Shown: positions 1,025 to 17,707, counted from the first letter of the stretch. The stretch: DNA of 32,002 nt from Nitrospinales bacterium (GCA_023248535.1 JAHFEJ010000021.1:9033-41034); one strand, 5' to 3'. Numbers and translations are program-made. The notes: generated from the sequence alone by a model not told the origin.

Positions 1025-1468
1025 TTACTTGCAGGCGTCCTTGTATCCCTTTGCGCAGGCGTTGGCATAATCTTCCCTGGCCTTTTTCATTTCACCGTTT
1101 ATTTCATTCGCCTGCCCCCGGACAAAGTATGGCTCCCCTTGGCCGGGATCCAGCTCTATGGCCTTGTTCAGGTCCTTCACGGCGGTATCAACATCACCCA
1201 TATCCTTGGAGGCCTTTCCCCGGAGAGCGTACGCTGCGGCAAACTTGGGGGATTCTTTTATCGCCAAGGTGGTCTGTTCGATCACTTTGGAGTAATTTGC
1301 GCTGCCGTAAGCCCGGCGTGCTTCTATTAAATAGTCGTTGGCTTTTCCCCCTTCGGCAGCCGGAGCGGCGGCTTTCTTGCTATCGCTTCCAAACCCGCCA
1401 AGGCTGAACGCCGAGGCGCCCGAAATAAATGTCATAACCATTACCACTGCCAGGAGTATCGCTCTCAT
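1025..1468 (-). CDS. secreted TPR protein
   Basis: The ATG at 1468 is preferred over the in-frame one 18 bases upstream, because a strong ribosome site (GAGGGGG) lies between them. The start gives a signal peptide (MRAILLAVVMVMTF, cleavage after GASA). The mature protein, about 125 residues, carries two to three tetratricopeptide repeats (for example AAYALRGKASKDMGDVDTA and PYFVRGQANEINGEM) and ends with a Cys-containing motif (NACAKGYKDACK) like the end of Sel1/TPR proteins. TPRs bind other proteins, so a periplasmic scaffold or assembly role is plausible, but the partner is unknown. It is the last gene of the operon, 27 bases after the fusion gene at 1496-4381, and a clear terminator follows. 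Confidence 0.75.
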   Translation of the reverse strand: MRAILLAVVMVMTFISGASAFSLGGFGSDSKKAAAPAAEGGKANDYLIEARRAYGSANYSKVIEQTTLAIKESPKFAAAYALRGKASKDMGDVDTAVKDLNKAIELDPGQGEPYFVRGQANEINGEMKKAREDYANACAKGYKDACK

Positions 1469-1495
1469 TTTTTCCCCCTCTTTCACATATCCGGT

Positions 1496-4381
1496 TTACG
1501 TTAACTTGCCCAAGGCCTCAAGTATGGACTGGCGCTCGCTTTCCGATGGATCAAGCGTGAGCGCATAATTATAATACTCTTTTGCTTTATTCCCATTTTT
1601 TAGCACAAAACCATAGAGTCCCGCAAGGTTGACCGCGGCCATCATATACCGCGGGTCCAATTTGAGGGCTTCAAGGAACTCATGTTCGGCTTCGTAATCC
1701 CTTCCCTGCCGGGCGAAAAACATCCCTTTTAGAAAATGGGTCTGCGTCCTGAAAAGTCCGCCGGTATCCATGTTTTCGGTATCCATGAGCAATTGCATCC
1801 CCAAATCGGGCTGGTTTTTCGCCAGCACCGAAAAGAGAGTGGTGATGTTAAGGGAAAGATAGGCGTACCGGGCATCCGCATTATCAGGGTTCATTTCAAG
1901 GGCGCGGCTAAACCGTTTTGCCGCGGAGCCGATATGGCCGTCGCTGAGTTCTATCTGCCCCCTCAGGAACTCTTCCTCGGAAAGAAAATAATTCCTGAAA
2001 ACCGCCTCCTGTTCCGCCGATGCGAAGCCAACCTTTGGCAAACCGCGGAACTTGAGAAGATTCTCAAGATTGCGCGCCTTGATGGCGACGCCCGATTCGT
2101 GGATACGGGGAGCGGAAAACTCCACGTATGGGTGGTCGTCGGTAACCGGCGCCATTCCCGCCGTGAACAGCCGGATCTGTCCGGCATCCATCATGAAATT
2201 TGAAAGGAGCTGGTTGACGTTCACGATGCCAATGCCCTTCAGGCTTTCCGCGACCCCGCTTTTCGCCATTCCATCCCGGAGCCTGGAAACATCGATGGGC
2301 ATGTCCCCATTCGATCCCACCATGATAGCGTCCCACTTTGTGTACCACATCGACGCATTGGGAAAAACGTCGATGAACGTCGCCACGAGCGCGCGGAAAT
2401 CATCTTCCGAGAGGTGATGCAACGGTATCCACTGGGAAACGATCCCCTTTTCGGCCAGCCGCTTTTTGCACAGCTGGTAATATTCCCTCGTGTACAGGCT
2501 CACGATGCCGGCATTGGAAGGGGGCGGCGGCTCGGAGGTTATCAGGTCGTATTTCTCCCGTGTGGTGAGCAGGAAATTCCTTCCGTCTTCCTCCACCATC
2601 GCAAGCGCCGGATTTTTCGCCACATTGAAATTGGCTTCGGCGAATTGATCCGCCGCGCCGAATACTTCGCGGGAAATATCGACGGCGGTAACCCGCTCAA
2701 GCCCATGCGCGGCGGCGGCCCCCGCGGTGCTGCCGGTGCCAAAGCAGATCACCAGCGCCTTTTTTGGCGCCGGATGCATCAGGAGGGGTATGTGGGCTTG
2801 CAGCCGCTCAAGCTGCAATGCCTCGCGGAAGGCCCCGGCTATCGGGTCGCCATTTATCCATATCCGGCTTACCGGTTTTCGGTACGCGGAAAGGTCGGAG
2901 TCCTGGGAAGCGGTCAAAACGGTCGCGGAAGGCCCCTCCCGGTAATATGTCACCCTGCTGCCGGTCTCCAGTTTTTGGGCGCTCAGGGCGTAGGCGGGAT
3001 CACCAGCCACGATGACGCCGATGGTTACAACCAACAGACAGACCACCGCGAAAACGGCGCGCGACCGCTCCTTTCCGTCCGTGGATTTTAATTGAAGGTA
3101 AACGCCCGCAATGATGGCCATCCATGAGACGGTCACAATGCCAAAGCGTATCCCCATCAGGGGAATAAGCAGATACCCGGCGGCTAGCGAACCTAACACG
3201 CATCCGGCGATATTCATGGCGTAAAACCGGCCAACCATGCCCCCCGTTTGTTCCGGTGTTGCGGAGATCGCGCCCAGAATAAGCGGGAAACCCCCTCCCA
3301 TGAGGAACGTGCAGGGGAATACGATTATCATGGAAAAGATGACCGCTTCGGCCATCGGGCCGCCGCCCGGTATCATGGAAGCAAAGAAACCGCCGCCGGC
3401 CGCTCCCGCCAAGCCCACCAGTTCCCGGTTAAAAAGCAGCGCCGCCAGCGACGCGAGCGCGAACAGCCCAATCCCCATCTGAAATCCGCCGAACAGGAAC
3501 GCCCCGTTGCGCGGCGCCCTTTTCATCATACGGGCCGTCAATGCGCTGCCGGTGCCGATCCCCAGGAGGAAAATCGCCAGAATCAGTGAAAACGCGTACG
3601 TGGTGTTGTTCAAGAGAAGGATGAACATCCTTGTCCAAAGGACTTCAAGGGCCATTGCGCAAAAACCGGAAACGCCGAAGAGGAATAATATGGACGTGTG
3701 GGGAAGCGCGAAGCCTCCGGTTTCCGCCGAAGCTGCTTTGGCCCCGCCGGCGGAAACGGATACCCAACCAGCCTCAGCCGCCAGCAGCAACGCGCCGGCA
3801 CCGCAAATAATGTTCAGTACCGCGCCCACCCTCAGGGTTGCCGACAGGCCGATATGCTCCATCAGCCAAAAGCCCGCTAGAACGCATCCGGCCACCGCGC
3901 CCAACGTGTTGACCGCATAAAGGCCCCCCACCGATTTGCCGATAACCCGCCCCTGTTGCGCCAAGTAACGGCTTAACGCGGGAAGCGTGCCTCCCATCAG
4001 GCCGGTCGGTACCAAAAGCGCGGAAACCGCCAGAATAAAACGCAGCACCATGACATACAGCACGTTTCCGCCATCGCCCGGATGCAGCAGCACATACGAC
4101 TTTTCAAGCCCCTGCAGGATGAAGGGGAACAAAAGCACATAGACGGCGATTGATATTTCCAGCGCGGCGTAAAGCCGCACCGGCGCCATGCCCTGATCCA
4201 GCTTTTTACCAAAGTATACCGCGCCGAAACCAAGGCCCCCCATGAACGCCACCAGAACCGCGCTTACCGCATAAATGCTGACGCCCAGCAAAAGGGTCAG
4301 TTGCCGCACCCAGACAATTTCGTAGATAAGGCCGGCGGCGCCTGAGATGAAGAAGAGGCCGAAAAGGAGGGTCCTTTTCAC
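1496..4381 (-). CDS. membrane-spanning spermidine-synthase-like protein with TPR tail
   Basis: A 961-residue fusion in three parts. Residues 1 to about 480 are a multi-pass membrane region of the MFS/SpeE-fusion type (start MKRTLLFGLFFISGAAGLIY, internal repeat GFCAMALEVLWTRMF). Residues of about 490-760 are a spermidine-synthase-like Rossmann fold: CFGTGSTAG for cofactor binding, AVDIS, EEDGRNFL and SEPPPPSNAG. In this membrane family the catalytic Asp loop of true spermidine synthase is normally SEP-type, so polyamine synthesis is not assured. Residues of about 820-961 hold TPRs. The GTG start overlaps the TGA of the preceding propeller gene (GTGA), indicating translational coupling. The substrate is unknown. 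An aminopropyl-transfer product such as a metal-binding opine-like compound is only a hypothesis. Confidence 0.8.
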   Translation of the reverse strand: MKRTLLFGLFFISGAAGLIYEIVWVRQLTLLLGVSIYAVSAVLVAFMGGLGFGAVYFGKKLDQGMAPVRLYAALEISIAVYVLLFPFILQGLEKSYVLLHPGDGGNVLYVMVLRFILAVSALLVPTGLMGGTLPALSRYLAQQGRVIGKSVGGLYAVNTLGAVAGCVLAGFWLMEHIGLSATLRVGAVLNIICGAGALLLAAEAGWVSVSAGGAKAASAETGGFALPHTSILFLFGVSGFCAMALEVLWTRMFILLLNNTTYAFSLILAIFLLGIGTGSALTARMMKRAPRNGAFLFGGFQMGIGLFALASLAALLFNRELVGLAGAAGGGFFASMIPGGGPMAEAVIFSMIIVFPCTFLMGGGFPLILGAISATPEQTGGMVGRFYAMNIAGCVLGSLAAGYLLIPLMGIRFGIVTVSWMAIIAGVYLQLKSTDGKERSRAVFAVVCLLVVTIGVIVAGDPAYALSAQKLETGSRVTYYREGPSATVLTASQDSDLSAYRKPVSRIWINGDPIAGAFREALQLERLQAHIPLLMHPAPKKALVICFGTGSTAGAAAAHGLERVTAVDISREVFGAADQFAEANFNVAKNPALAMVEEDGRNFLLTTREKYDLITSEPPPPSNAGIVSLYTREYYQLCKKRLAEKGIVSQWIPLHHLSEDDFRALVATFIDVFPNASMWYTKWDAIMVGSNGDMPIDVSRLRDGMAKSGVAESLKGIGIVNVNQLLSNFMMDAGQIRLFTAGMAPVTDDHPYVEFSAPRIHESGVAIKARNLENLLKFRGLPKVGFASAEQEAVFRNYFLSEEEFLRGQIELSDGHIGSAAKRFSRALEMNPDNADARYAYLSLNITTLFSVLAKNQPDLGMQLLMDTENMDTGGLFRTQTHFLKGMFFARQGRDYEAEHEFLEALKLDPRYMMAAVNLAGLYGFVLKNGNKAKEYYNYALTLDPSESERQSILEALGKLT

Positions 4382-5502
4382 CTGAACAGCTTCTCGGTAT
4401 TCTTTAATTTGACCCGCATTTTCTTTGCTTCGTCAACCAGCTTTGCGGTGTCCAACATGCCAATCTTCCCTGTGCCGGATTCAGTGAACCATATACGCCC
4501 CTTTGGGTCTATCACCAGGGTAGTCGGCTTCGACTCCCCTTCGCTGAGATCGAAAATACGTATGGTGGCCGTTTTGGTGTTAAAGCAGAGCAACCGGTTA
4601 TCGGTGCTTTGAACCATCCAGATGTTATCTGACCGGTCTACCGCCATCTCCTGGGTTCCTTTGTTTTTCGGCATCTCGAACGTCTCGTGCTTGCTTGTGT
4701 TCGGGTCAAAACGCACCAGCTTGTTGTCGACCATTTCGAGGTACCAAACCATCCCTTTGGAATCGATCGCCGTCCCCAAAATGGACTGTATGGATTCCGA
4801 TACGCTCCACTCCCGGAACCGCTTTTTTTCGGGATCGAACATGGCAACCTTGTTGCCGCCACGCTCGACAAACCATATATTGCCGAAGTGATCCTCCGTC
4901 AGATCGAAGCTGCTGCTGTTGGGAGTGGGGATATTGAAGTTGTCGAATTTTTCCGTACCGGGACGGAATCGGACCAGCATGTTGTTATTCCAGCCCAGTA
5001 TCCATACATCGCCATTGCGCGCCGCAAAAACAATGATCGGGTTGACATTCTTGAAGGGGATAACGTATTCCTTGAAAGTGCCCGTCCGCGGGTCGAACCG
5101 GCTCAACACATTGACATCCTGCTCCGCCAGCCAGAGCACACCGTCTTTGTCAGCGGCGATATCCATGGCGTGGCTTTTATCGGAGGGAATGGGAAATTCT
5201 TTCATCTCGCGCGACTCAGGGTCAAACCTCACCAGCGCGTTGGCATTGAACTCGATAAACCAGATTTTGGAATCCGCGGTGGCGGTGATGGCGGTTGGAT
5301 AGCTCTCCTTTTGGGGGATGTTATATTCTGTTATCAGCTCGTTGGCGGGGTCAGCGGAAAAGGCGGCAACCGGCAACATCAGTACCAAAAGGATCACCCG
5401 GAAAGCGGCACCGCTTAAAAAACCGGCAAGCCGCCCCATCTTGGAAACGGGCTGAAGCGGCATATCGCGCAAACGGCGCTTTGACAATATCCAAGCCACC
5501 AT
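4378..5502 (-). CDS. Vgb-like seven-bladed beta-propeller, exported (copy 2)
   Basis: A 374-residue protein with an Arg-rich N-terminus and a hydrophobic segment ending AAFSA, so it is exported. Seven repeats follow with the streptogramin-lyase (virginiamycin B lyase) signature. Each has IWF(I/V/T)E- or LWLAEQ-like strands and an RFDP turn, for instance IWFIEFNANALVRFDP, LWLAEQDVNVLSRFDP, VWYLEMVDNKLVRFDP and IWFTESGTGKIGMLD. The catalytic His/Glu set of true Vgb is not evident, so antibiotic lysis is unlikely. A periplasmic binding or scaffold role is more probable. A GGGAAG ribosome site lies before ATG 5502. The gene starts 18 bases after the paralogue at 5521-6756 and overlaps the next gene by four bases. 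Confidence 0.8.
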   Translation of the reverse strand: MVAWILSKRRLRDMPLQPVSKMGRLAGFLSGAAFRVILLVLMLPVAAFSADPANELITEYNIPQKESYPTAITATADSKIWFIEFNANALVRFDPESREMKEFPIPSDKSHAMDIAADKDGVLWLAEQDVNVLSRFDPRTGTFKEYVIPFKNVNPIIVFAARNGDVWILGWNNNMLVRFRPGTEKFDNFNIPTPNSSSFDLTEDHFGNIWFVERGGNKVAMFDPEKKRFREWSVSESIQSILGTAIDSKGMVWYLEMVDNKLVRFDPNTSKHETFEMPKNKGTQEMAVDRSDNIWMVQSTDNRLLCFNTKTATIRIFDLSEGESKPTTLVIDPKGRIWFTESGTGKIGMLDTAKLVDEAKKMRVKLKNTEKLFR

Positions 5503-5520
5503 ACAAACTTCCCGCGTGGC

Positions 5521-6756
5521 TTAATGAGAGTGTTGGGCGCCGGGATCGTGAACGTGGGCGGGAGCCGCATTTTTGGGAACCGATGAACGGATAAGCATTG
5601 ATATCTGATTCGCGCCCCTATCGCTCTCGGTAAACCAGATATCCCCTTTGGAGTCGGTGGCGATACTCATCGGCTGGGCCCCCATGGAAGGCAGGTCAAA
5701 GGTTCCGAACCTGACGGCCTTCTGGTCAAAATACCCGACCGTGTTCATCATGCTGTCAATGTACCAGATATACCCGTCCTTGGCCGGAGCGATGGCCTGT
5801 GGAGCCGTATTGTAGCCCGGAGGTTCGGTCAGCCCGAACAATTCTTTGCCCGTATAAAATACGCCAATCTGCTTTGTGTGCAATGCGCAAAACCAAAGCA
5901 TTCCCTCGGCGCCCATTTGCATCTTCCCCGGCTGCGCCCGCACGGCGGGAATGGGGAATTTCTTGAATTTACGGGTTTCCGGCTCATACCTGCCGATATA
6001 GTTCTCGCTAACTTCGCTCAGATAGACCAAGCCGGCGGCATCCACCGCTATCCCCATCAATTGGCTTCCCGGCGTAAGCGGTATTTCGGTTATTTTCTTT
6101 TTGGCGGTGTCAAGAAAGCCGAACTTCCCGCCGTTTTTCTCGATAAACCATATCCGTCCTTGCGGGTCTTCAGCCAAATCATACGGCTGGCCGTTTTTAG
6201 TCGGAAGGAGAAACTCGGTGAATTCCTCGGAGGCCGGATCGAACCGGACAACGCTGTTGCCCAAATGCATCACAAACCAAATGATATCGTTTTTCCCGAC
6301 GATCACGTTCCCGGGGCTGCCGACACTGAAAACGTTGAAGGCTTTATCCGGGGAGGTCCGGTTCTTTGAGTCGTATTTCCAGTCCGATTCCGGCAACCCT
6401 TGGGTGGAAGGTATACGGTACTCCTTGAACTCCCCCTTTGCGGGGTCGAGAACGGCCAACGAATTGGCGCTCATCAGTGTGCTCCATATCCTGTCCTTGG
6501 AGTCCACCGCTATGCCATACGGAGTGGCGTAACGGGAAGGGACGGGATATTGCACAATGCGAACATCCCCTTTTACTTCCTTGGGAGCAATGGTGGTGAT
6601 TTTCGGCTTTACTTTTTCGCCAATACCCTTTGCCGGCGCGTCCGAAGCCCGCACGGAGCCGGTAAAGGCCACCAACAACGCCAACCCCGCCACCAACAAG
6701 AAAGATTGAGGCTTAGGCGTCCACCGGAAAATGCTACCAGGTGAACGTAGGTTCAT
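5521..6756 (-). CDS. Vgb-like beta-propeller, exported, His-rich tail (copy 1)
   Basis: A 411-residue protein with a signal peptide (SFLLVAGLALLVAFTGSVRA) and a propeller of the streptogramin-lyase type. Its blades carry motifs such as IWSTLMSANSLAVLDP, IWFVMHLGNSVVRFDP, IWFIEKNGGKFGFLD and IWFTESDRGANQISML. The C-terminus (HVHDPGAQHSH) has four His in eleven residues and could bind copper or another metal. It is clearly related to the next gene (same fold, same blade motifs), so the pair looks like an old tandem duplication. ATG 6756 has GAGG seven bases upstream. The start lies inside the end of the cytochrome b/c gene (23-base overlap), which ties the two in translation. The lyase activity is not supported; the role is inferred from the respiratory context. 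Confidence 0.8.
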   Translation of the reverse strand: MNLRSPGSIFRWTPKPQSFLLVAGLALLVAFTGSVRASDAPAKGIGEKVKPKITTIAPKEVKGDVRIVQYPVPSRYATPYGIAVDSKDRIWSTLMSANSLAVLDPAKGEFKEYRIPSTQGLPESDWKYDSKNRTSPDKAFNVFSVGSPGNVIVGKNDIIWFVMHLGNSVVRFDPASEEFTEFLLPTKNGQPYDLAEDPQGRIWFIEKNGGKFGFLDTAKKKITEIPLTPGSQLMGIAVDAAGLVYLSEVSENYIGRYEPETRKFKKFPIPAVRAQPGKMQMGAEGMLWFCALHTKQIGVFYTGKELFGLTEPPGYNTAPQAIAPAKDGYIWYIDSMMNTVGYFDQKAVRFGTFDLPSMGAQPMSIATDSKGDIWFTESDRGANQISMLIRSSVPKNAAPAHVHDPGAQHSH

Positions 6757-7444
6757 ACATGTGCCTCATCTGCCAGTTTGCATCCTTGTACCCTTGCACC
6801 TCGCTCTGGCCGCCCTCGCCGCCGCCGCCTTCAGCGTTTACTTTTCCCGCCCGATACTTGCCGACCCCGATTTGCATCGCGCGCTCCGTTGCATAATACT
6901 TAGCCACGTTCGCGGGAGCATTGCCCATTCGTGCCCCCATGGAGGCGTTATGACACGAATCGCAGCCGAGGACTTTTGCCTGATGGCCACTCTTATAGAC
7001 CCCCACAAGAATAACCAAGGCGAAAATCAGCGAAGGCAAGGCATAGGTAAAGCTTCTCTTAAATCCTGCCAGCCCCCTGGCCTTCTCAATCAGATTCTTA
7101 AGGCCCGGGATGCGGTCAAAGGGAACTTTATGCATAACCGGCAAGAACATGAAAAATACAAGCGTTAAGATCGGAATAACCGGCATCAAAACAAGGTATT
7201 TCTTCATGCTGCCGCCGAAGTACCAAAATCCCTGCCAGAAAAGCAGGAATATCCATTCGGGGCCGGGGATGTTTTCGCCTTCATCCGGCATCGGAACCTG
7301 GTCGGGGGCCAAATACGGCACCGGATATTTAATCGAAATAACAACCATTACCGCCACCAAAGCGGTCATTATGATTGAGAGGATCAACAGGTAAGTGGGC
7401 CACCAGTATAGCCCTCTTTTTTTTGCGGTGTTCGTGTCGTTCAT
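6734..7444 (-). CDS. cytochrome b C-terminal half (subunit IV type) fused to cytochrome c
   Basis: A 236-residue protein. The first about 150 residues resemble subunit IV of b6f or the C-terminal half of bc1 cytochrome b: three hydrophobic helices and PEWI at 62-65 in place of the quinol-site PEWY. A c-type haem motif CDSCH follows at 161-165, with candidate distal Met ligands near the end (MRHMYEP). It would take electrons from quinol through the partner b6-like protein to a periplasmic acceptor. I choose ATG 7444, which has GGGAGAAG upstream, because the longer frame from 7492 would overlap the b6 gene with non-family sequence. Its stop overlaps the start of the propeller gene. No Rieske protein is encoded nearby. 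Confidence 0.85.
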   Translation of the reverse strand: MNDTNTAKKRGLYWWPTYLLILSIIMTALVAVMVVISIKYPVPYLAPDQVPMPDEGENIPGPEWIFLLFWQGFWYFGGSMKKYLVLMPVIPILTLVFFMFLPVMHKVPFDRIPGLKNLIEKARGLAGFKRSFTYALPSLIFALVILVGVYKSGHQAKVLGCDSCHNASMGARMGNAPANVAKYYATERAMQIGVGKYRAGKVNAEGGGGEGGQSEVQGYKDANWQMRHMYEPTFTW

Positions 7445-7469
7445 GACAGGCTTCTCCCTATTTTCATGT

Positions 7470-8102
7470 TCATACTCTCTTGGCCAATCCAAGCCGCCGC
7501 GTCAGAACGATATGAACGAAAAGAACGGCGAAAAACAGAATGGGCAACATAATGATATGCACCGCGAAATTACGGCCGAGGGTGAAAGAACCCATAATCA
7601 GGCTTTTCAAGGAAGCACCGACCACCGGAACCAAATCAATCCAGTCGGCCCATATAATCAGTTCCCAATAGCTTCTCCAGTCCCACGGCGCAATAATGCC
7701 GGTTATCAGGAAAAGAAAGAAAATCACCCCCAAAACAAGCCCGGTGAACCAGTTCAGTTCACGGGGGCTTCTATAAGCTTTTCTTCCCATTGTGTGGAAA
7801 ACATGCAACATGACGAACAATGCGCCGAAAGTCGCGCTCCAGCGGTGCATATTCCGCATTAACGCGCCGAACTCCGATAGCTGGCACATTTCCCGTATGC
7901 TCTGGTGCGCATGAAGCGGTTCTGGAACATAGTACATGACCATGTAGAAGCCAGTCAGGAACTGGATACCCACACAGCCAATGGTCAAGCCGCTAAAAAA
8001 GTGCCATAACGTCACGCTTTCAGACAGCTCAAATGCAACATGATTGTTATAAAACTGTACTATCCCAAGCCGTTCGTCAACCCATCCAATTATATTTTTC
8101 AT
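7470..8102 (-). CDS. cytochrome b6-like subunit, di-haem
   Basis: A 210-residue, four-helix cytochrome b N-terminal half. The four haem-b ligands are visible as His86/His100 and His182/His197, matching the 14- and 15-residue spacing of cytochrome b6. The segment NMHRWSATFGALFVMLHVFH is diagnostic. Family role: quinol oxidation in the membrane, together with the subunit IV/cytochrome c protein encoded next. Its ATG overlaps the stop of the lipoprotein gene (ATGA, 8099-8102). Given the gene order, the complex probably feeds electrons toward the NosZ-like enzyme, replacing the NosG/H or NosC cytochromes of better-known clusters. That link is inference. Confidence 0.9.
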   Translation of the reverse strand: MKNIIGWVDERLGIVQFYNNHVAFELSESVTLWHFFSGLTIGCVGIQFLTGFYMVMYYVPEPLHAHQSIREMCQLSEFGALMRNMHRWSATFGALFVMLHVFHTMGRKAYRSPRELNWFTGLVLGVIFFLFLITGIIAPWDWRSYWELIIWADWIDLVPVVGASLKSLIMGSFTLGRNFAVHIIMLPILFFAVLFVHIVLTRRLGLAKRV

Positions 8103-8614
8103 TTTGCCCCCTCTGCTTTACTAGCCAATTCCGTGCCATCTGCAGTCTGGGATTCTTTAACGAATGTCGATTCATCGATCGTGTCCGCATTGAAATCTAT
8201 TTGCCACTCATTGGCCTTTTGGTCAAGGATGAGATTCACCTGGCTTGAAGTTTTGAAATTGGCGTCGAATATTGAAGGAGTGTTCACTTCAAGCTTAACC
8301 ACCGCGATCCAGTCGCCACTCTTATTCGGCTTTGCCGGAAGAACCGCTTGAAGCACTTTAATCTTTGACTGGGCCGTCCCGTAATTTTCCGTCCATTTTC
8401 TAAATGAGTCAATATCCATCACGCCATATTTTGTGGAAACCATTTTAAACGCTTCCTGATTGGAAAGGCGTCCGCCATCCGCAAGAAGCTTGAAAAACCG
8501 TGAGGCGACTTCTTCGGGCTTGGCCTCAGGAAATTTGGCCTGCGGTTTGGTGCATCCGATAAAGACGATGGTGGCCAGAAGCGGCCAAATGAAGGTTCTC
8601 AAGACATATTTCAT
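8099..8614 (-). CDS. lipoprotein, NTF2-like, unknown
   Basis: A 171-residue protein starting with a lipoprotein signal (MKYVLRTFIWPLLATIVFIGC; lipobox VFIGC), so it should be anchored to a membrane in the periplasm. The mature part alternates helix (EVASRFFKLLADGG) and strands ending NEWQIDFN, which recalls NTF2-like lipoproteins of the DUF4878 kind. No catalytic residues are apparent. It opens the seven-gene operon running to 1025, and its stop overlaps the cytochrome b6 start by four bases. The ribosome site is poor (GGGGGG about 12 bases off). A palindrome resembling an FNR box lies 22-35 bases upstream. Confidence 0.65.
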   Translation of the reverse strand: MKYVLRTFIWPLLATIVFIGCTKPQAKFPEAKPEEVASRFFKLLADGGRLSNQEAFKMVSTKYGVMDIDSFRKWTENYGTAQSKIKVLQAVLPAKPNKSGDWIAVVKLEVNTPSIFDANFKTSSQVNLILDQKANEWQIDFNADTIDESTFVKESQTADGTELASKAEGAK

Positions 8615-8635
8615 ATTCTAAAACGCCCCCCGAAA

Positions 8636-8649
8636 TTGAACAATATCAA
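8636..8649. promoter_or_regulatory. FNR/DNR-like operator candidate
   Basis: TTGAA-CAAT-ATCAA matches the FNR-family consensus TTGAT-N4-ATCAA at nine of ten defined positions. It lies between the nosZ terminator and the lipoprotein start, a fitting place for control by oxygen or nitric oxide. Its closeness to the ATG (centre 28 bases upstream) does not suit classical activation at -41.5. Confidence 0.4.
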
Positions 8650-8685
8650 AACATGCTACATCGTAAAACCGATAATTCGCAACAA

Positions 8686-8719
8686 AAATATGAGGGGCCG
8701 GTTTTACAACCGGCCCCTC
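8686..8719 (-). terminator. strong terminator directly after nosZ
   Basis: GAGGGGCCGGTT (8692-8703) pairs perfectly with AACCGGCCCCTC (8708-8719) around a TTAC loop, a 12-bp GC-rich stem. On the minus strand it is followed by ATATTTTTG. It separates nosZ and its small upstream gene from the seven genes that follow, either fully or as a partial stop that lowers their expression. Confidence 0.8.
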
Positions 8720-8760
8720 TTTGTACCGCCAATTAGGCAGAACGAAGTCGACTCACCCAG

Positions 8761-10563
8761 TTAGATAGTGGGTTCGCTTCCCTCATTCAGCTTGTTCATC
8801 AGCTTGTTGGTGCCGACGATCCACTGGTGCTCATTCGGAGCAAGCATGGTCTCCTGCTTGGAAATCTCGTCGTAATCGCCAACGCCCATGGAGGCTTTGC
8901 CGCCTGGGGGATCAACGAAGAACGTTCCGCGCATTTCAAGGTGCAAGGGGCCGCAGAACTGCTGGCAGTAGTATTCAAATTCGCCAGCCTTATCAGCCAC
9001 GAATTCGTTTACAGCCGACATGCCGCGAACCGCGAATACCATGGTGCGGGGACCGTAGTAACCAGCGGCGGTGAAGCCCATGGTAACGTCCGGGTTCTTG
9101 GTAAGACCGGAAGCCTTGTCTATATTGGTATAGATCAAGCGGACTTTCGCGCCTTTGGGCACGTGGATGAAGCGGGGCACATAGCCGTAGGAGAAGCCTT
9201 TGACGCGCACTACGTACACATCGCCTTCCTTCGTCACGCCGGGCTTGCCGTCGTCACGGGGAATCCAGGTCCGGCTGCTATCCGCCGTGTGATTCGGCTC
9301 AAGCTGCGGATGCTGATTCGCGGGGAGACCGGGGCGGCCTTTTTCGCCAAAGTTGACGTGGTAGTCGCCAAGGTCATAGCCCTTCTCGAACAGGTCTTCA
9401 CCTTTACCGGTATTCCATCTCTGGATGTACGTGGCGAATATCTGGCGGCCCTCGTGCGGTTCGCCGTCAACCGGCGCCAGCTTGACGGACTTGCCGTAAG
9501 TCGCGCTGGTCTCGTCGATATCCTGTTCCTCGAAGTTAACGGCAAAGATGATGCCGGTCGGGGTAAACAGGCCGGTGGAGAACTTGTTCTGGGACATGTA
9601 GTACGCATCGTCCGGAGCGATCGAGTTGTGACCGCAGCGGTAGTGGATCGGGAACTCGTCAACCAACTGCATGCGCATCACGTCGGTCTTCGAAGTGGAG
9701 TCCGACACGAAGCAGGAGTTGTAGACGTATTTCCCGAGGCTGTCAAACTGGTTGTGCAGGGGGCCGGCGCCAACCGGTATAACCTTGCGCACGCGCAGTT
9801 GATCCACGTCGATGATCGAAATGGTGGCGGAAAGCTTGTCGCAGACGCTTACCATCCGGTTCGTCGGGCTGACGTTGGTACCGTGCGGATTTTTTCCGAC
9901 CGGGATTTCCTTGATCAGCTTGAACGGGTCTTGGCTGAACACCATGACCGCCGAGTGATAGTAGTTGCCCGAGAAGACGTACTTTCCGTCTTTGCTGGTA
10001 TCCGGATAGTCCGGTGCGCTGGGGGCCGGCGGTATGTCAAGAACCGTCGTCGCGCCGTCGGAAAGCCGCAGTTTCAGCATTTTACCGGTGAGTTCGCCGG
10101 TGGCAAACAGATATTTGCCGTTGGGGGAAATAGCCGCGCTGTGGTGAATACCGAACGGTTTCGGCAAAGCGAAGAGGCGCTCCACCCAGCCGGTCTGCAG
10201 GTTCACTTCAGCGATCGTGTCCGCGCCCTTGTCGGAAACATACAGGTACTTGCCATCGGGCGTACCGTTGTTGTTACCCGCGTTGGAGCCGGAGAACGGG
10301 AAGTTGTGAAGGTCGGTGCCGCACTTGATGTGGCGGTACGTCTTCATGGAAGGAATACCGATAACGCCGATGGAGCCGTCAGTACCGCCCGCATCGTACA
10401 AGATTGCATAGTCGCGCAACGGATAGTCGCTATCCTGCGGGGCTATGACTTGCCAGTCACGGGCATCTTTATCCGTAAGAATCGTCTTTTTCGCTTCCGC
10501 GGGCAGGTTAAGAGCAACCAGCGCGACGGAAAGAGTCAATAAGGAAAATAGCTTTTTTTTCAA
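8761..10563 (-). CDS. nosZ: nitrous-oxide-reductase-like multicopper enzyme, divergent
   Basis: A 600-residue protein with a Sec signal (cleavage after PAEA) and no twin-arginine motif, as in clade II NosZ. It has an N-terminal propeller and a C-terminal cupredoxin with the CuA motif CQQFCGPLHLEM (C533, C537, H541, M544). Aligned by eye to Paracoccus NosZ, the CuZ ligands are H86, H140, H227 (PHG), H270 (GPLH), H312 (CGH) and H370 (EPH). The second His of the usual DxHH pair is Asn87 (DLHN). The CuA His of LTHGF is Met495 (VTMGF). It should reduce N2O to N2 in the periplasm, but the altered ligands make this uncertain. The start codon is TTG, behind GGAGGGGGTGGT. It is 18 bases from the small secreted protein gene, and a strong terminator follows. 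Confidence 0.8.
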   Translation of the reverse strand: MKKKLFSLLTLSVALVALNLPAEAKKTILTDKDARDWQVIAPQDSDYPLRDYAILYDAGGTDGSIGVIGIPSMKTYRHIKCGTDLHNFPFSGSNAGNNNGTPDGKYLYVSDKGADTIAEVNLQTGWVERLFALPKPFGIHHSAAISPNGKYLFATGELTGKMLKLRLSDGATTVLDIPPAPSAPDYPDTSKDGKYVFSGNYYHSAVMVFSQDPFKLIKEIPVGKNPHGTNVSPTNRMVSVCDKLSATISIIDVDQLRVRKVIPVGAGPLHNQFDSLGKYVYNSCFVSDSTSKTDVMRMQLVDEFPIHYRCGHNSIAPDDAYYMSQNKFSTGLFTPTGIIFAVNFEEQDIDETSATYGKSVKLAPVDGEPHEGRQIFATYIQRWNTGKGEDLFEKGYDLGDYHVNFGEKGRPGLPANQHPQLEPNHTADSSRTWIPRDDGKPGVTKEGDVYVVRVKGFSYGYVPRFIHVPKGAKVRLIYTNIDKASGLTKNPDVTMGFTAAGYYGPRTMVFAVRGMSAVNEFVADKAGEFEYYCQQFCGPLHLEMRGTFFVDPPGGKASMGVGDYDEISKQETMLAPNEHQWIVGTNKLMNKLNEGSEPTI

Positions 10564-10581
10564 GAGTTACCACCCCCTCCG

Positions 10582-10998
10582 TTATTTTTCGTGCTTGTAA
10601 TAAACGCCAGCTTTGGCGTCGGATTCAAGCCGTTTAATCAAGTAGCTGTTAGGATCAAGAATTACGACCCTTCTGGCCACATAGTTGCTGCCATCCAGAT
10701 TCCATCCGTAGACCGCAACCAAGTCGTTAGCCTTCAATTCGGTAAACTTCTTGAAGACGCCCCTGTCGCCAGTCATCACGTAGGCATCGGGATGCAACTT
10801 CATCGTGTACGTCTTGCTAGCCTTCTCAAATTTGGTAGCAATCGTAAGCTCACGATTTCCCAGTTTGGTTATCGTGCCAACCTGCAGGCAGTCCTTATTG
10901 GTGGAACCGTTGCCCAATTCGGCAACCGCGGACTGAGCCAAAAAGACCGTCGAGACCAGAGCAAGCACGAAAGCAAAACCCATTGACTTTATTTTCAT
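10582..10998 (-). CDS. small secreted DUF5666-like protein
   Basis: A 138-residue protein with a signal peptide (MKIKSMGFAFVLALVSTVFLAQSAVA). The mature part has the pattern of DUF5666: VGTITKLGNRELTI at the start, then a TELKANDLVAVYGW turn and a closing NYVARRVVIL strand, which suggests a small beta-barrel. One Cys is present (KDCLQVG). It is the first gene of the transcript that includes nosZ, with GGGGGGTGAT before the ATG. Function is unknown. Its position invites a role in NosZ maturation, metal delivery or folding, but nothing in the sequence proves this. Confidence 0.65.
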   Translation of the reverse strand: MKIKSMGFAFVLALVSTVFLAQSAVAELGNGSTNKDCLQVGTITKLGNRELTIATKFEKASKTYTMKLHPDAYVMTGDRGVFKKFTELKANDLVAVYGWNLDGSNYVARRVVILDPNSYLIKRLESDAKAGVYYKHEK

Positions 10999-11274
10999 CT
11001 GCTATCACCCCCCCTAATTCAAAAAATGTTTATTTAGGTACCTAAAAACCCACACCATTTTTCCATGCGGCACCCCCGAAAGAGCGCCACACGATATTTA
11101 CGGAATATACCACAAGTACCAGTCCCCAAATCAAGAAAATAATTGAGTAACTCAACTCGTCACAATATAGGGTTTTTCGAAAACCAAATCAACCTCAAAT
11201 TTAAGGCTCTTTTTACCCTAACGGGTCATATGGAGACCCTGAACCGGTGACGGACGGGACAGATGTTCCCGCTG
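10999..11274. other. control region upstream of the nosZ transcript, with three inverted repeats
   Basis: No gene is seen here. The region holds a perfect 14-bp palindrome TTTAGGTACCTAAA (11033-11046), a perfect 13-base inverted repeat TTGAGTAACTCAA (11143-11155), and GGTTTT-TCG-AAAACC (11171-11185). On the minus strand a TATATT (11109-11104) could be a -10 element, but no good -35 is at the right distance. The repeats are probably operators for the nosZ promoter. Confidence 0.5.
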
Positions 11275-15766: not shown

Positions 15767-16069
15767 ATGGCGACAAAAGATGAAGTACTTGCCGCCCTCA
15801 AGGCGGTGATCGATCCCGAGGTCGGCGTAAACATCGTCGATCTGGGCCTTGTCTACGGCGTAGCCATCGACGGCGGCGCGGTGAAAGTGAACATGACCAT
15901 GACCACTGCCGCCTGTCCGGTCACGGAATACATGAAAACGCAGGCGCGCGGCGCGGTGCTGGGGACACTGCCCGAAATCAGCGATGTCCAGGTCGACATG
16001 GTGTGGGATCCGCCGTGGAAGCCAACCATGATGTCGGAAGCCGCGAAGCGGAAATTGGGAGTCGGCTGA
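15767..16069 (+). CDS. MIP18/DUF59 family protein (SufT/PaaD-like)
   Basis: A 100-residue protein matching the DUF59 (MIP18) fold from end to end: VIDPEVGVNIVDLGLVYGV, then VNMTMTTAACPVTEYM with the conserved Cys, and MVWDPPWKP near the end. Members help place or mature Fe-S clusters (SufT) or serve in the phenylacetate oxygenase (PaaD); no paa genes are nearby, so the Fe-S role is more likely. ATG 15767 has GAGGA seven bases upstream. The membrane protein gene follows after 11 bases, so the two are likely co-transcribed. Confidence 0.85.
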   Translation: MATKDEVLAALKAVIDPEVGVNIVDLGLVYGVAIDGGAVKVNMTMTTAACPVTEYMKTQARGAVLGTLPEISDVQVDMVWDPPWKPTMMSEAAKRKLGVG

Positions 16070-16080
16070 ACAGCCGGACG

Positions 16081-17187
16081 ATGAACAACATCTGGCTCCG
16101 TATCCGGTTCCCGCTGCTGGGGGCGGGGATGTTGTGCCTGCTTGCCGGAGTTTACGCCGGTTTGTTGCGCGCCGGAATTGAAATTCCGGTACCCGCCCAA
16201 AACCTCGCCGCCTCGCACGGCGCGCTTATGATCGGCGGTTTTCTGGGAACGGTGATCGGCCTCGAACGGGCCGTGGCGCTCGGCGCGCCGTGGGGTTACG
16301 CCGCGCCCGCGCTGGCCGGGTTCGGCACGCTTCTCTATCTGGCGGGTGTTGAAGCCGGTGCGGCGGCCGTAACGCTCTCCTCCGTGTTGCTCGTCTCCAT
16401 GTACGGCGTGGTGCTCCGCCGCCAACTGTCGTTCTTCAATGCCGTTATGGCCCTGGGTGCGGCGGCGTGGATGGCCGGAAACATCTACTGGCTCCGCGGG
16501 TATCCGTTCCCGGACTTTGTTTTGTGGTGGGCACTTTTCGTGGTGCTTACCATCGCGGGCGAACGGCTGGAACTGAGCCGCTTCCTTCAACATCCGCCGC
16601 GTATAAGTATATTGTTCGCCATCTTTGCCGCAACGGCCATCGCCGGCGTTTTCGCCGCGGCGGGCGGGGCGGTGTGGGGCAACCGGCTCACCGGGGCGGG
16701 ATTCATCCTGCTTTCCCTTTGGCTGCTCATGTACGATGTGGCCCGCCGCACCGTTAAGCAGGAAGGGCTTACCCGTTTCGTGGCGGTCTGCCTGCTGGCC
16801 GGGTATGTATGGCTGGCGATGGCGGGCGCAATGCTGGCGGGGGGAACCGGACTGGCCCCGGGATACCAATACGATGCCCTGCTGCATTCGCTGTTCCTCG
16901 GTTTCGCCTTCAGCATGATCTTCGGCCACGCACCGATCATATTCCCCGCCGTGCTCAACCTGGCGGTTCCGTTCCGCCCCGTATTTTACCTGCACGTGGC
17001 GGTGTTGCACATCTCGCTGCTGATGCGCGTGGGCGGGGATCACGCGATGAACGATTCATTGCGCGCCGCCGGTGCGGCCCTCAACGGAGCCGCGTTGCTG
17101 ATCTTTTTGATCAACACCGCGCTGTCGGTGCGCGCCGGGCTTATTTCCCGGCGGCCGGCTCCGGCGGCCCGGGCGGGAGGAGCTTGA
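16081..17187 (+). CDS. NnrS-like multi-pass membrane protein
   Basis: A 368-residue protein made almost wholly of hydrophobic helices (about ten to twelve). Motifs SHGALMIGGFLGTVIGLERA near the N-terminus and HSLFLGFAFSMIFGHAPIIFP near the C-terminus place conserved His at helix ends, as in NnrS-related haem/copper membrane proteins that protect against nitric oxide. The match is partial, so the call is family-level. ATG 16081 follows the DUF59 stop closely. A longer frame from 16003 would lie inside the DUF59 gene. The ribosome site is weak, which suits coupled translation. Its 3' end overlaps the convergent cytochrome gene by 47 bases. Confidence 0.65.
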   Translation: MNNIWLRIRFPLLGAGMLCLLAGVYAGLLRAGIEIPVPAQNLAASHGALMIGGFLGTVIGLERAVALGAPWGYAAPALAGFGTLLYLAGVEAGAAAVTLSSVLLVSMYGVVLRRQLSFFNAVMALGAAAWMAGNIYWLRGYPFPDFVLWWALFVVLTIAGERLELSRFLQHPPRISILFAIFAATAIAGVFAAAGGAVWGNRLTGAGFILLSLWLLMYDVARRTVKQEGLTRFVAVCLLAGYVWLAMAGAMLAGGTGLAPGYQYDALLHSLFLGFAFSMIFGHAPIIFPAVLNLAVPFRPVFYLHVAVLHISLLMRVGGDHAMNDSLRAAGAALNGAALLIFLINTALSVRAGLISRRPAPAARAGGA

Positions 17188-17707
17188 TCCCTTCGGTAGC
17201 CCACCGCAGGATGATCTGAACCTCGTCGCGCGTGAGCCGCTCATTCCAATGCGGTACTGTGTAATAAAAGGGGGGCATATCCCCCTCCTCCACCTCTTTT
17301 TGAATCGCCTTAAGGTCTTTCAACGGGGTGCCGTGCCCCTTGAACGGAAAATCGGCGTTCATGTCCATATGCTTCCGCGCTTCCCTGATATCCCAGTCGA
17401 TAAACTGACGCACGCCGGGAATGACGTAATACGCCGGATACCGGGTCTGCTCTGAATGGCAGTCGAAGCAGGTTCTTTTGAAAATCGGCTTCACGTCCCG
17501 CAGATAGCGGTTGTTGATCACATTGAGGGCCGCGGCATCGGGCGGAGGAACGGCCACGGGCTGGCCGGCAAGGGGCTGGCTGGCGGCGGGCGGCTCTCCA
17601 CCCTTGCCGTGCTCCACGCCTCCGTGGGCCGACGCGGGGCTGGCGGTGAACAGTAACAAGGTTGCGGCCAAAGCACCGGCACATAGTTTCAAAATAAAAT
17701 GGCTCAT
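17141..17707 (-). CDS. periplasmic haem-binding (cytochrome c) protein
   Basis: A 188-residue protein with a signal peptide ending PASA and a Pro/Gly-rich stretch with His (HGGVEHGKGGEPP). A haem-binding domain then follows with CFDCH at 80-84 (C80, C83, H84), RYPAYY, DWDIREARKHMD and GDMPPFYYTVPHW. This is the arrangement of the haem-bd family (PF14376-like), whose members carry a single c-type haem. The short C-terminus (PPGPPEPAAGK) overlaps, on the opposite strand, the last codons of the NnrS-like gene. Role: periplasmic electron carrier or sensor, partner unknown. Confidence 0.8.
   Translation of the reverse strand: MSHFILKLCAGALAATLLLFTASPASAHGGVEHGKGGEPPAASQPLAGQPVAVPPPDAAALNVINNRYLRDVKPIFKRTCFDCHSEQTRYPAYYVIPGVRQFIDWDIREARKHMDMNADFPFKGHGTPLKDLKAIQKEVEEGDMPPFYYTVPHWNERLTRDEVQIILRWATEGIKLLPPGPPEPAAGK

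Follow-up and report, generated by a model that had tools for sequence, protein, structure and literature searches.

A stretch of 32,002 nucleotides from a Nitrospinales bacterium (GCA_023248535.1, JAHFEJ010000021.1:9033-41034), referred to here as the window, has been analysed with respect to a group of genes surrounding a homologue of the nitrous oxide (N2O) reductase NosZ. The window is part of contig 55 of a host genome of 2.87 Mb (132 contigs, 98% complete). Nine open reading frames (ORFs), all on the minus strand, run from position 10998 down to 1025 and encode, 5' to 3', a protein of the family NF052405, NosZ, a lipoprotein, a cytochrome b6-type subunit, a subunit IV-cytochrome c fusion, two beta-propeller proteins, a fusion of membrane, SpeE-like and tetratricopeptide repeat (TPR) regions, and a TPR protein (Table 1). 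Neighbouring genes overlap by 4 bp at 8099-8102 and 4378-4381 and over longer segments at 7470-7492 and 6734-6756, the extent of which depends on the chosen start codons; 146 bp separate NosZ from the lipoprotein and the remaining non-overlapping junctions are 9-18 bp apart. Pfam and NCBIfam profiles detect none of nosD, nosF, nosY and nosL within the nine-gene cluster. The first-pass annotation had described a one-strand nos locus of nine genes devoid of these four, and both the ORFs and the profiles bear it out.

The NosZ protein has as its top NCBIfam match the clade III lactonase-type N2O reductase (L-NosZ, NF052460), with 595 bits over profile positions 2-479 of 480. The clade I and clade II NosZ models also match it, with 116 and 159 bits, solved NosZ structures match by sequence with an E-value of ~1e-23, and hhalign aligns it with two canonical NosZ over 446 columns at 99.9% probability. 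The protein has the domain combination of L-NosZ, a lactonase-like propeller (PF10282, 2e-18) and a cupredoxin domain of CuA type (C-x3-C-x3-H-x2-M), and a Sec-type signal at the N-terminus. It is named L-NosZ-like because the match is full-length and lies under the curated NCBI cut-off of 700 bits; all the 16 members of the class that match NF052460 score between 576 and 614, every one below that value. Sequence comparison thus places the enzyme as clade-III-like, in a subgroup outside the NCBI threshold. This identity had been missed in the first-pass annotation, and part of the oddness of the locus may belong to that clade.

Relatives found through NosZ are labelled as Nitrospinota, Nitrospinales, Nitrospinaceae, Nitrospinia or 'Nitrospirae' metagenome-assembled genomes (MAGs), several of them with groundwater isolate names. 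The closest include the loci L025 and L041 (nzgw267), the latter encoding a NosZ 95% identical to that of the window. No relatives were found among the viral contigs searched, and the plasmid matches, among those listed, are canonical NosZ proteins of ~25% identity. No protein of the operon is better conserved than NosZ, whose identity to the window averages 79% outside the genus as against 42-54% for the partners; this argues for a demanding function.

The partner proteins have been aligned with 7-21 sequences each. In the cytochrome b6 subunit the haem ligands H86, H100, H182 and H197 are invariant, and the subunit IV-cytochrome c fusion retains in the relatives the PEW motif of the Qo site and a CxxCH motif. 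The four haem histidines, the Qo motif and the cytochrome c by which bc1/b6f complexes are recognised are all found, and their retention makes a working quinol-oxidising b/c pair plausible. A Pfam scan of the nine operon genes reveals no Rieske protein; a separate Rieske-cytochrome b-subunit IV set is located on contig 132 of the host genome. The lipoprotein is predicted to adopt an NTF2-like fold, since its AlphaFold2 model, with a mean predicted local distance difference test (pLDDT) score of 77, matches NTF2, ketosteroid isomerase and CaMKII-hub folds in Foldseek (best E-value 1.2e-3). The first gene product belongs to a family named 'NOV5WD8W family nitrogen cycling protein' and has an N-terminal signal-like stretch and no conserved metal ligands. 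Among the protein labels given in the first-pass annotation, those for the b6 subunit, the subunit IV-cytochrome c without Rieske partner, the two propellers, the lipoprotein, the SpeE/TPR fusion and the TPR protein have stood; its DUF5666-like gene is the one now assigned to NF052405.

A tblastn search of each window gene against 34 loci, some of which represent the same genome twice, reveals that the order and strand of the genes from NF052405 through the SpeE fusion are kept in all contigs of sufficient length save one (L037), with the TPR gene last in most. The exception retains the first five genes, followed by unrelated ones. Of the genes on either side of the operon in the window, the majority were found only in near relatives. 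Recurrence of the order in several families, mostly without the flanking genes, goes beyond chance, and the earlier proposal that the genes belong together is upheld. A second nosDFYL cluster combined with an unconserved gene order had been named there as the outcome that would refute the reading of the locus; since the order is conserved, this outcome has not come about.

The TPR gene was not found in the loci L036, L038 and L039. In two of these a TlpA-like thioredoxin with a CPPC motif follows the SpeE fusion in the place of the TPR gene (L038:19737-20255, with a 4-bp overlap, and L039:11817-12338). TlpA-like thioredoxins assist CuA assembly in other systems. L-NosZ is encoded in 16 of the 23 genomes of the class and NF052405 in the same 16, the other seven having neither; so exact a match would arise about once in 245,000 if the genomes were independent, which is a rough guide as they are related.

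Table 1. Features of the nos operon in the window (positions counted from the first nucleotide of the window).
Feature	Coordinates	Strand	Evidence
NF052405 protein, 138 aa	10582..10998	-	200 bits, cut-off 170
L-NosZ-like protein, 600 aa	8761..10563	-	NF052460, 595 bits; homology to NosZ
Lipoprotein, 171 aa, lipobox C21, NTF2-like fold predicted	8099..8614	-	alignment, AlphaFold2, Foldseek
Cytochrome b6-type subunit, 210 aa	7470..8102	-	PF00033, 2e-30
Subunit IV and mono-haem cytochrome c fusion, PEW and CxxCH	6734..7492	-	motif alignment
Vgb-lyase-like beta-propeller 1, exported, 411 aa	5521..6756	-	PF24684, 1.3e-43
Vgb-lyase-like beta-propeller 2, exported, 374 aa	4378..5502	-	PF24684, 8e-45
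Membrane (MFS-like), spermidine-synthase-like and TPR fusion, 961 aa	1496..4381	-	PF01564, 3e-14; TPRs; NF037959, 1e-28
TPR protein, exported, 153 aa	1025..1486	-	TPR_1, 3.6e-9
Intergenic stretch upstream of operon, presumed promoter region	10999..11274	-	inference

In those nos systems that have been studied, assembly of the four-copper CuZ site depends on NosDFY and NosL. The Pfam model of NosL (PF05573) matches in none of the 23 genomes of the class while two control genomes do match; the test rests on Pfam because the control NosL protein matched no NCBIfam model. None of the 23 genomes has a NosD (TIGR04247) above the cut-off of 300 bits, which two true NosD controls pass with 502 and 336, and weak matches of 22-67 bits occur in four genomes, the host genome not being among them. 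A NosD-like match of the host genome to PF05048 on contig 66 has been rejected, as the protein is a lipoprotein of 440 residues whose top NCBIfam match is a family of beta-helix-like surface proteins; the 3.4 kb read around it contain no ABC transporter genes. For NosF and NosY, which are members of generic ABC families, the control proteins match no specific profile, so that a profile search cannot exclude them. The earlier suggestion that the standard genes lie elsewhere in the genome therefore fails for NosL and NosD and is beyond the reach of profiles for NosF and NosY.

Standard maturation genes could yet have been missed, with NosF and NosY hidden among generic ABC proteins, NosD diverged, or the genes situated in the missing 2% of the MAG. 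The silence of the NosF and NosY controls, the weak beta-helix matches in four genomes, the dependence of the NosL test on a single model and the presence of an ABC gene set of Gld type ~20 kb from nos in some relatives are in keeping with such an explanation. However, the absence is repeated in 23 genomes, including an L-NosZ-positive one listed as 100% complete (G018), the ABC set scores best as GldA/GldF, and the NosL model recognises its controls; we consider the explanation very improbable. The absence of NosL and of NosD over the cut-off points to maturation of the enzyme by another route.

The Gld-type ABC genes belong to a set with a second b-c fusion, its own lipoprotein and a cytochrome c (L078:7223-12511 and L074-L076). 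The host genome has the set on contig 101, and in several relatives it is situated ~20 kb from nos; the top profile of its ABC pair is GldA/GldF. Homology of its lipoprotein to that of the nos operon is not claimed (hhalign probability 12.7%).

From the homology, the gene order, the co-occurrence of the genes and the maturation genes that are lacking, we infer that the cluster rather probably encodes a branch of the respiratory chain that reduces N2O in the periplasm and is matured without NosD and NosL. The retained haem and Qo motifs of the b/c pair, the Sco-family genes of 22 of the 23 genomes and the reported strong transcription of nosZ in the MAGs nzgw266-267 add to the case. Quinol would be oxidised by the b6 subunit together with the subunit IV-cytochrome c fusion; from the haem c the electrons would reach the CuA-like domain of L-NosZ, and N2O would be reduced at a site of CuZ type in its propeller. 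The core of such a system would be the first five genes, from NF052405 to the b/c pair, and the last four, from propeller 1 to the TPR protein, would be accessory. Copper would be loaded most likely by general periplasmic copper or thiol chaperones of Sco/TlpA type or by self-assembly onto the modified site. The organism most likely reduces N2O through this predicted chain.

The metal sites of NosZ bear directly on this proposal (residues are counted from M1 of a TTG start; one alignment, A1, numbers one lower). In 21 sequences the CuA-type residues C533, C537, H541 and M544 are invariant, as are the CuZ-type H86, H140, H227, H270, H312 and H370, the counterparts of six of the seven canonical histidines. 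An additional invariant histidine, His141, directly follows H140. Several observations weigh against N2O reduction by such a chain. The canonical CuA set of His, Cys, Cys, His and Met is incomplete, its first histidine, that of the 'DxTHGF' motif, being replaced by Met495 ('DVTMG') in every aligned Nitrospinota sequence, and the second histidine of the HH pair of CuZ (canonical H130) is Asn87 in all aligned sequences. The score of the enzyme falls short of the NF052460 cut-off in spite of the full-length match. The AlphaFold2 model of NosZ, built with 18 close relatives, has a pLDDT of 53.7 and is too poor for metal-site geometry. A b/c pair without Rieske protein is hard to reconcile with ordinary bifurcation at the Qo site. 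Sco-family proteins, which occur in 22 of the 23 genomes, with or without L-NosZ, are not specific to it. No activity data on N2O reduction by the Nitrospinota L-NosZ subgroup were found in the literature.

The invariance of Met495 and Asn87, the score under the cut-off and the lack of NosL and NosD would also suit a protein that is not an N2O reductase at all, with the altered CuA and CuZ sites serving another copper redox enzyme or a sensor. The preferences of the family have been examined by scoring mutated fragments against NF052460. At position 495 Met, His and Ala give 163.0, 163.9 and 161.1 bits, His and Met differing by 0.9, and at position 87 Asn, His and Ala give 276.8, 276.3 and 275.9 bits, Asn and His differing by 0.5; replacement of His141 by Ala costs 4.1 bits and that of His203 2.0. 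The NF052460 model thus shows no bias towards His at 87, gives His141 great weight and scores His and Met about equally at 495. Since the family model tolerates both replacements and values His141, and since the strong conservation of NosZ relative to its partners argues for a demanding function, a different activity appears improbable. These site features are at least partly common to clade III, which takes its name from reported N2O reduction, and H141 may stand in for the missing CuZ histidine.

Alternatively, proteins of the operon itself, namely NF052405, the NTF2-like lipoprotein and perhaps the propellers, may replace NosD and NosL as dedicated maturation factors of the copper sites. 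In every locus, the five-gene version included, NosZ stands between NF052405 and the lipoprotein, NF052405 tracks L-NosZ in 16 of 16 genomes and is absent from the seven others, and NosL and a NosD over the cut-off are wanting. The invariant Cys, His and Met residues of the partners are few. They comprise M336 and M363 in propeller 1, M129, H530 and H559 in the SpeE fusion and, beyond the haem residues, M54 in cytochrome b and M185 and the group M242/H244/M245 in the cytochrome c subunit; NF052405 (its start Met aside), propeller 2 and the TPR protein have none and the lipoprotein keeps its lipobox Cys. This does not favour a copper-chaperone role within the operon, though such a role is possible. 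Moreover, the lipoprotein resembles NTF2-like scaffolds and the co-occurrence fits a role in electron transfer or docking equally well, and dedicated maturation by these proteins is in our view doubtful. The idea of new copper-assembly proteins put forward in the first-pass annotation is unproven, as the partners, haem and lipobox residues aside, lack an invariant Cys/His/Met set such as a copper chaperone requires. A bolder combination is a phylum-level lineage with a functional N2O reductase both of whose copper sites are remodelled, CuA by a change of His to Met and CuZ by a shifted His; the enzyme would be assembled independently of NosD and NosL by means of NF052405 and the lipoprotein, and its electrons would come from a quinol complex that works without Rieske protein. 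We regard this as rather unlikely.

Four known systems come closest to the N2O-reducing chain proposed here. The window enzyme resembles L-NosZ in the full-length NF052460 match, the lactonase-like propeller with cupredoxin domain and the Sec-type signal, and differs in that its group stays under 700 bits and has a fixed Met at the CuA histidine where the family profile takes His or Met. The clade II cluster of Deinococcus ficus (pDFI2) is alike in Sec export, in a cytochrome c beside nosZ and in a TlpA-like thioredoxin near nosZ as in L038 and L039, but has nosD and an ABC pair, and its NosZ is ~24% identical to that of the window. The clade I nosRZDFYL cluster on a plasmid of Ruegeria sp. 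B32 encodes a homologous NosZ of the same two-domain plan; clade I is Tat-dependent, whereas the NosZ of the window has a Sec-like N-terminus and its cluster is devoid of NosR, NosD, NosF, NosY, NosL and any ApbE-like gene. The b-type cytochrome ExtP (NF040969), known from selenite/tellurite operons, shares the b6-type subunit with 131 bits, which is below its cut-off of 290, and differs in that the partner in the window carries a c-type haem and the operon has a NosZ.

The surroundings of the operon vary among the relatives. Several other genera carry additional genes upstream of NF052405 (L046:15-8679 and its equivalents), namely those of a periplasmic binding protein, an FGE-sulfatase-like protein, a histidine kinase, a sigma-54 response regulator and a second SpeE fusion. 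As a set they suggest regulated expression and may form a sensing module for nos. None of them stands at the corresponding place in the window. Pattern matches to a sigma-54 site upstream of the operon are not above chance, with none within the intergenic stretch 10999-11274. In one genome of the same genus (G001, L055:2268-6761) the region directly upstream of nos encodes an Rrf2-like regulator together with a cytochrome oxidase set that includes a Sco protein (PF02630), which is not so in the window. At 16003-17187 on the plus strand of the window, 5 kb from the nos operon, a multi-helix membrane protein is encoded that is NnrS-like by eye and has no Pfam match; a Haem_bd (PF14376) protein at 17141-17707 overlaps it on the opposite strand.

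Clade III, the lactonase-type NosZ, was reportedly named on N2O reduction by He et al. (Nature 2025, doi 10.1038/s41586-025-09401-4), to whom the family is attributed (cited in PMC13122619). A Nitrospinota MAG has been placed in the lactonase-type clade with a call for activity tests, and the Nitrospirota MAG nzgw271 is reported to carry L-nosZ together with nosDFLYX (PMC11033732), in contrast to the window genome, which has no NosL and no NosD over the cut-off. A novel Nitrospirota/Nitrospinae NosZ clade has been seen in aquifers, where the nosZ of the Nitrospinota MAGs nzgw266-267 ranked highest in transcription once genome abundance had been normalised for (PMC9562985). The clade of the enzyme and its expression are therefore already known; in the accessible literature no description was found of the conserved nine-gene set and its five-gene core, of the lack, throughout the class, of NosL and of a NosD over the cut-off, or of the metal-site pattern within this group.

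N2O is a potent greenhouse gas, for which NosZ is the chief biological sink known. A conserved L-NosZ operon without NosL, and without NosD over the cut-off, makes the dependence of N2O reductase on NosDFY and NosL testable, and the shifted metal ligands of the Nitrospinota enzymes amount to a natural experiment as to the residues that are required.

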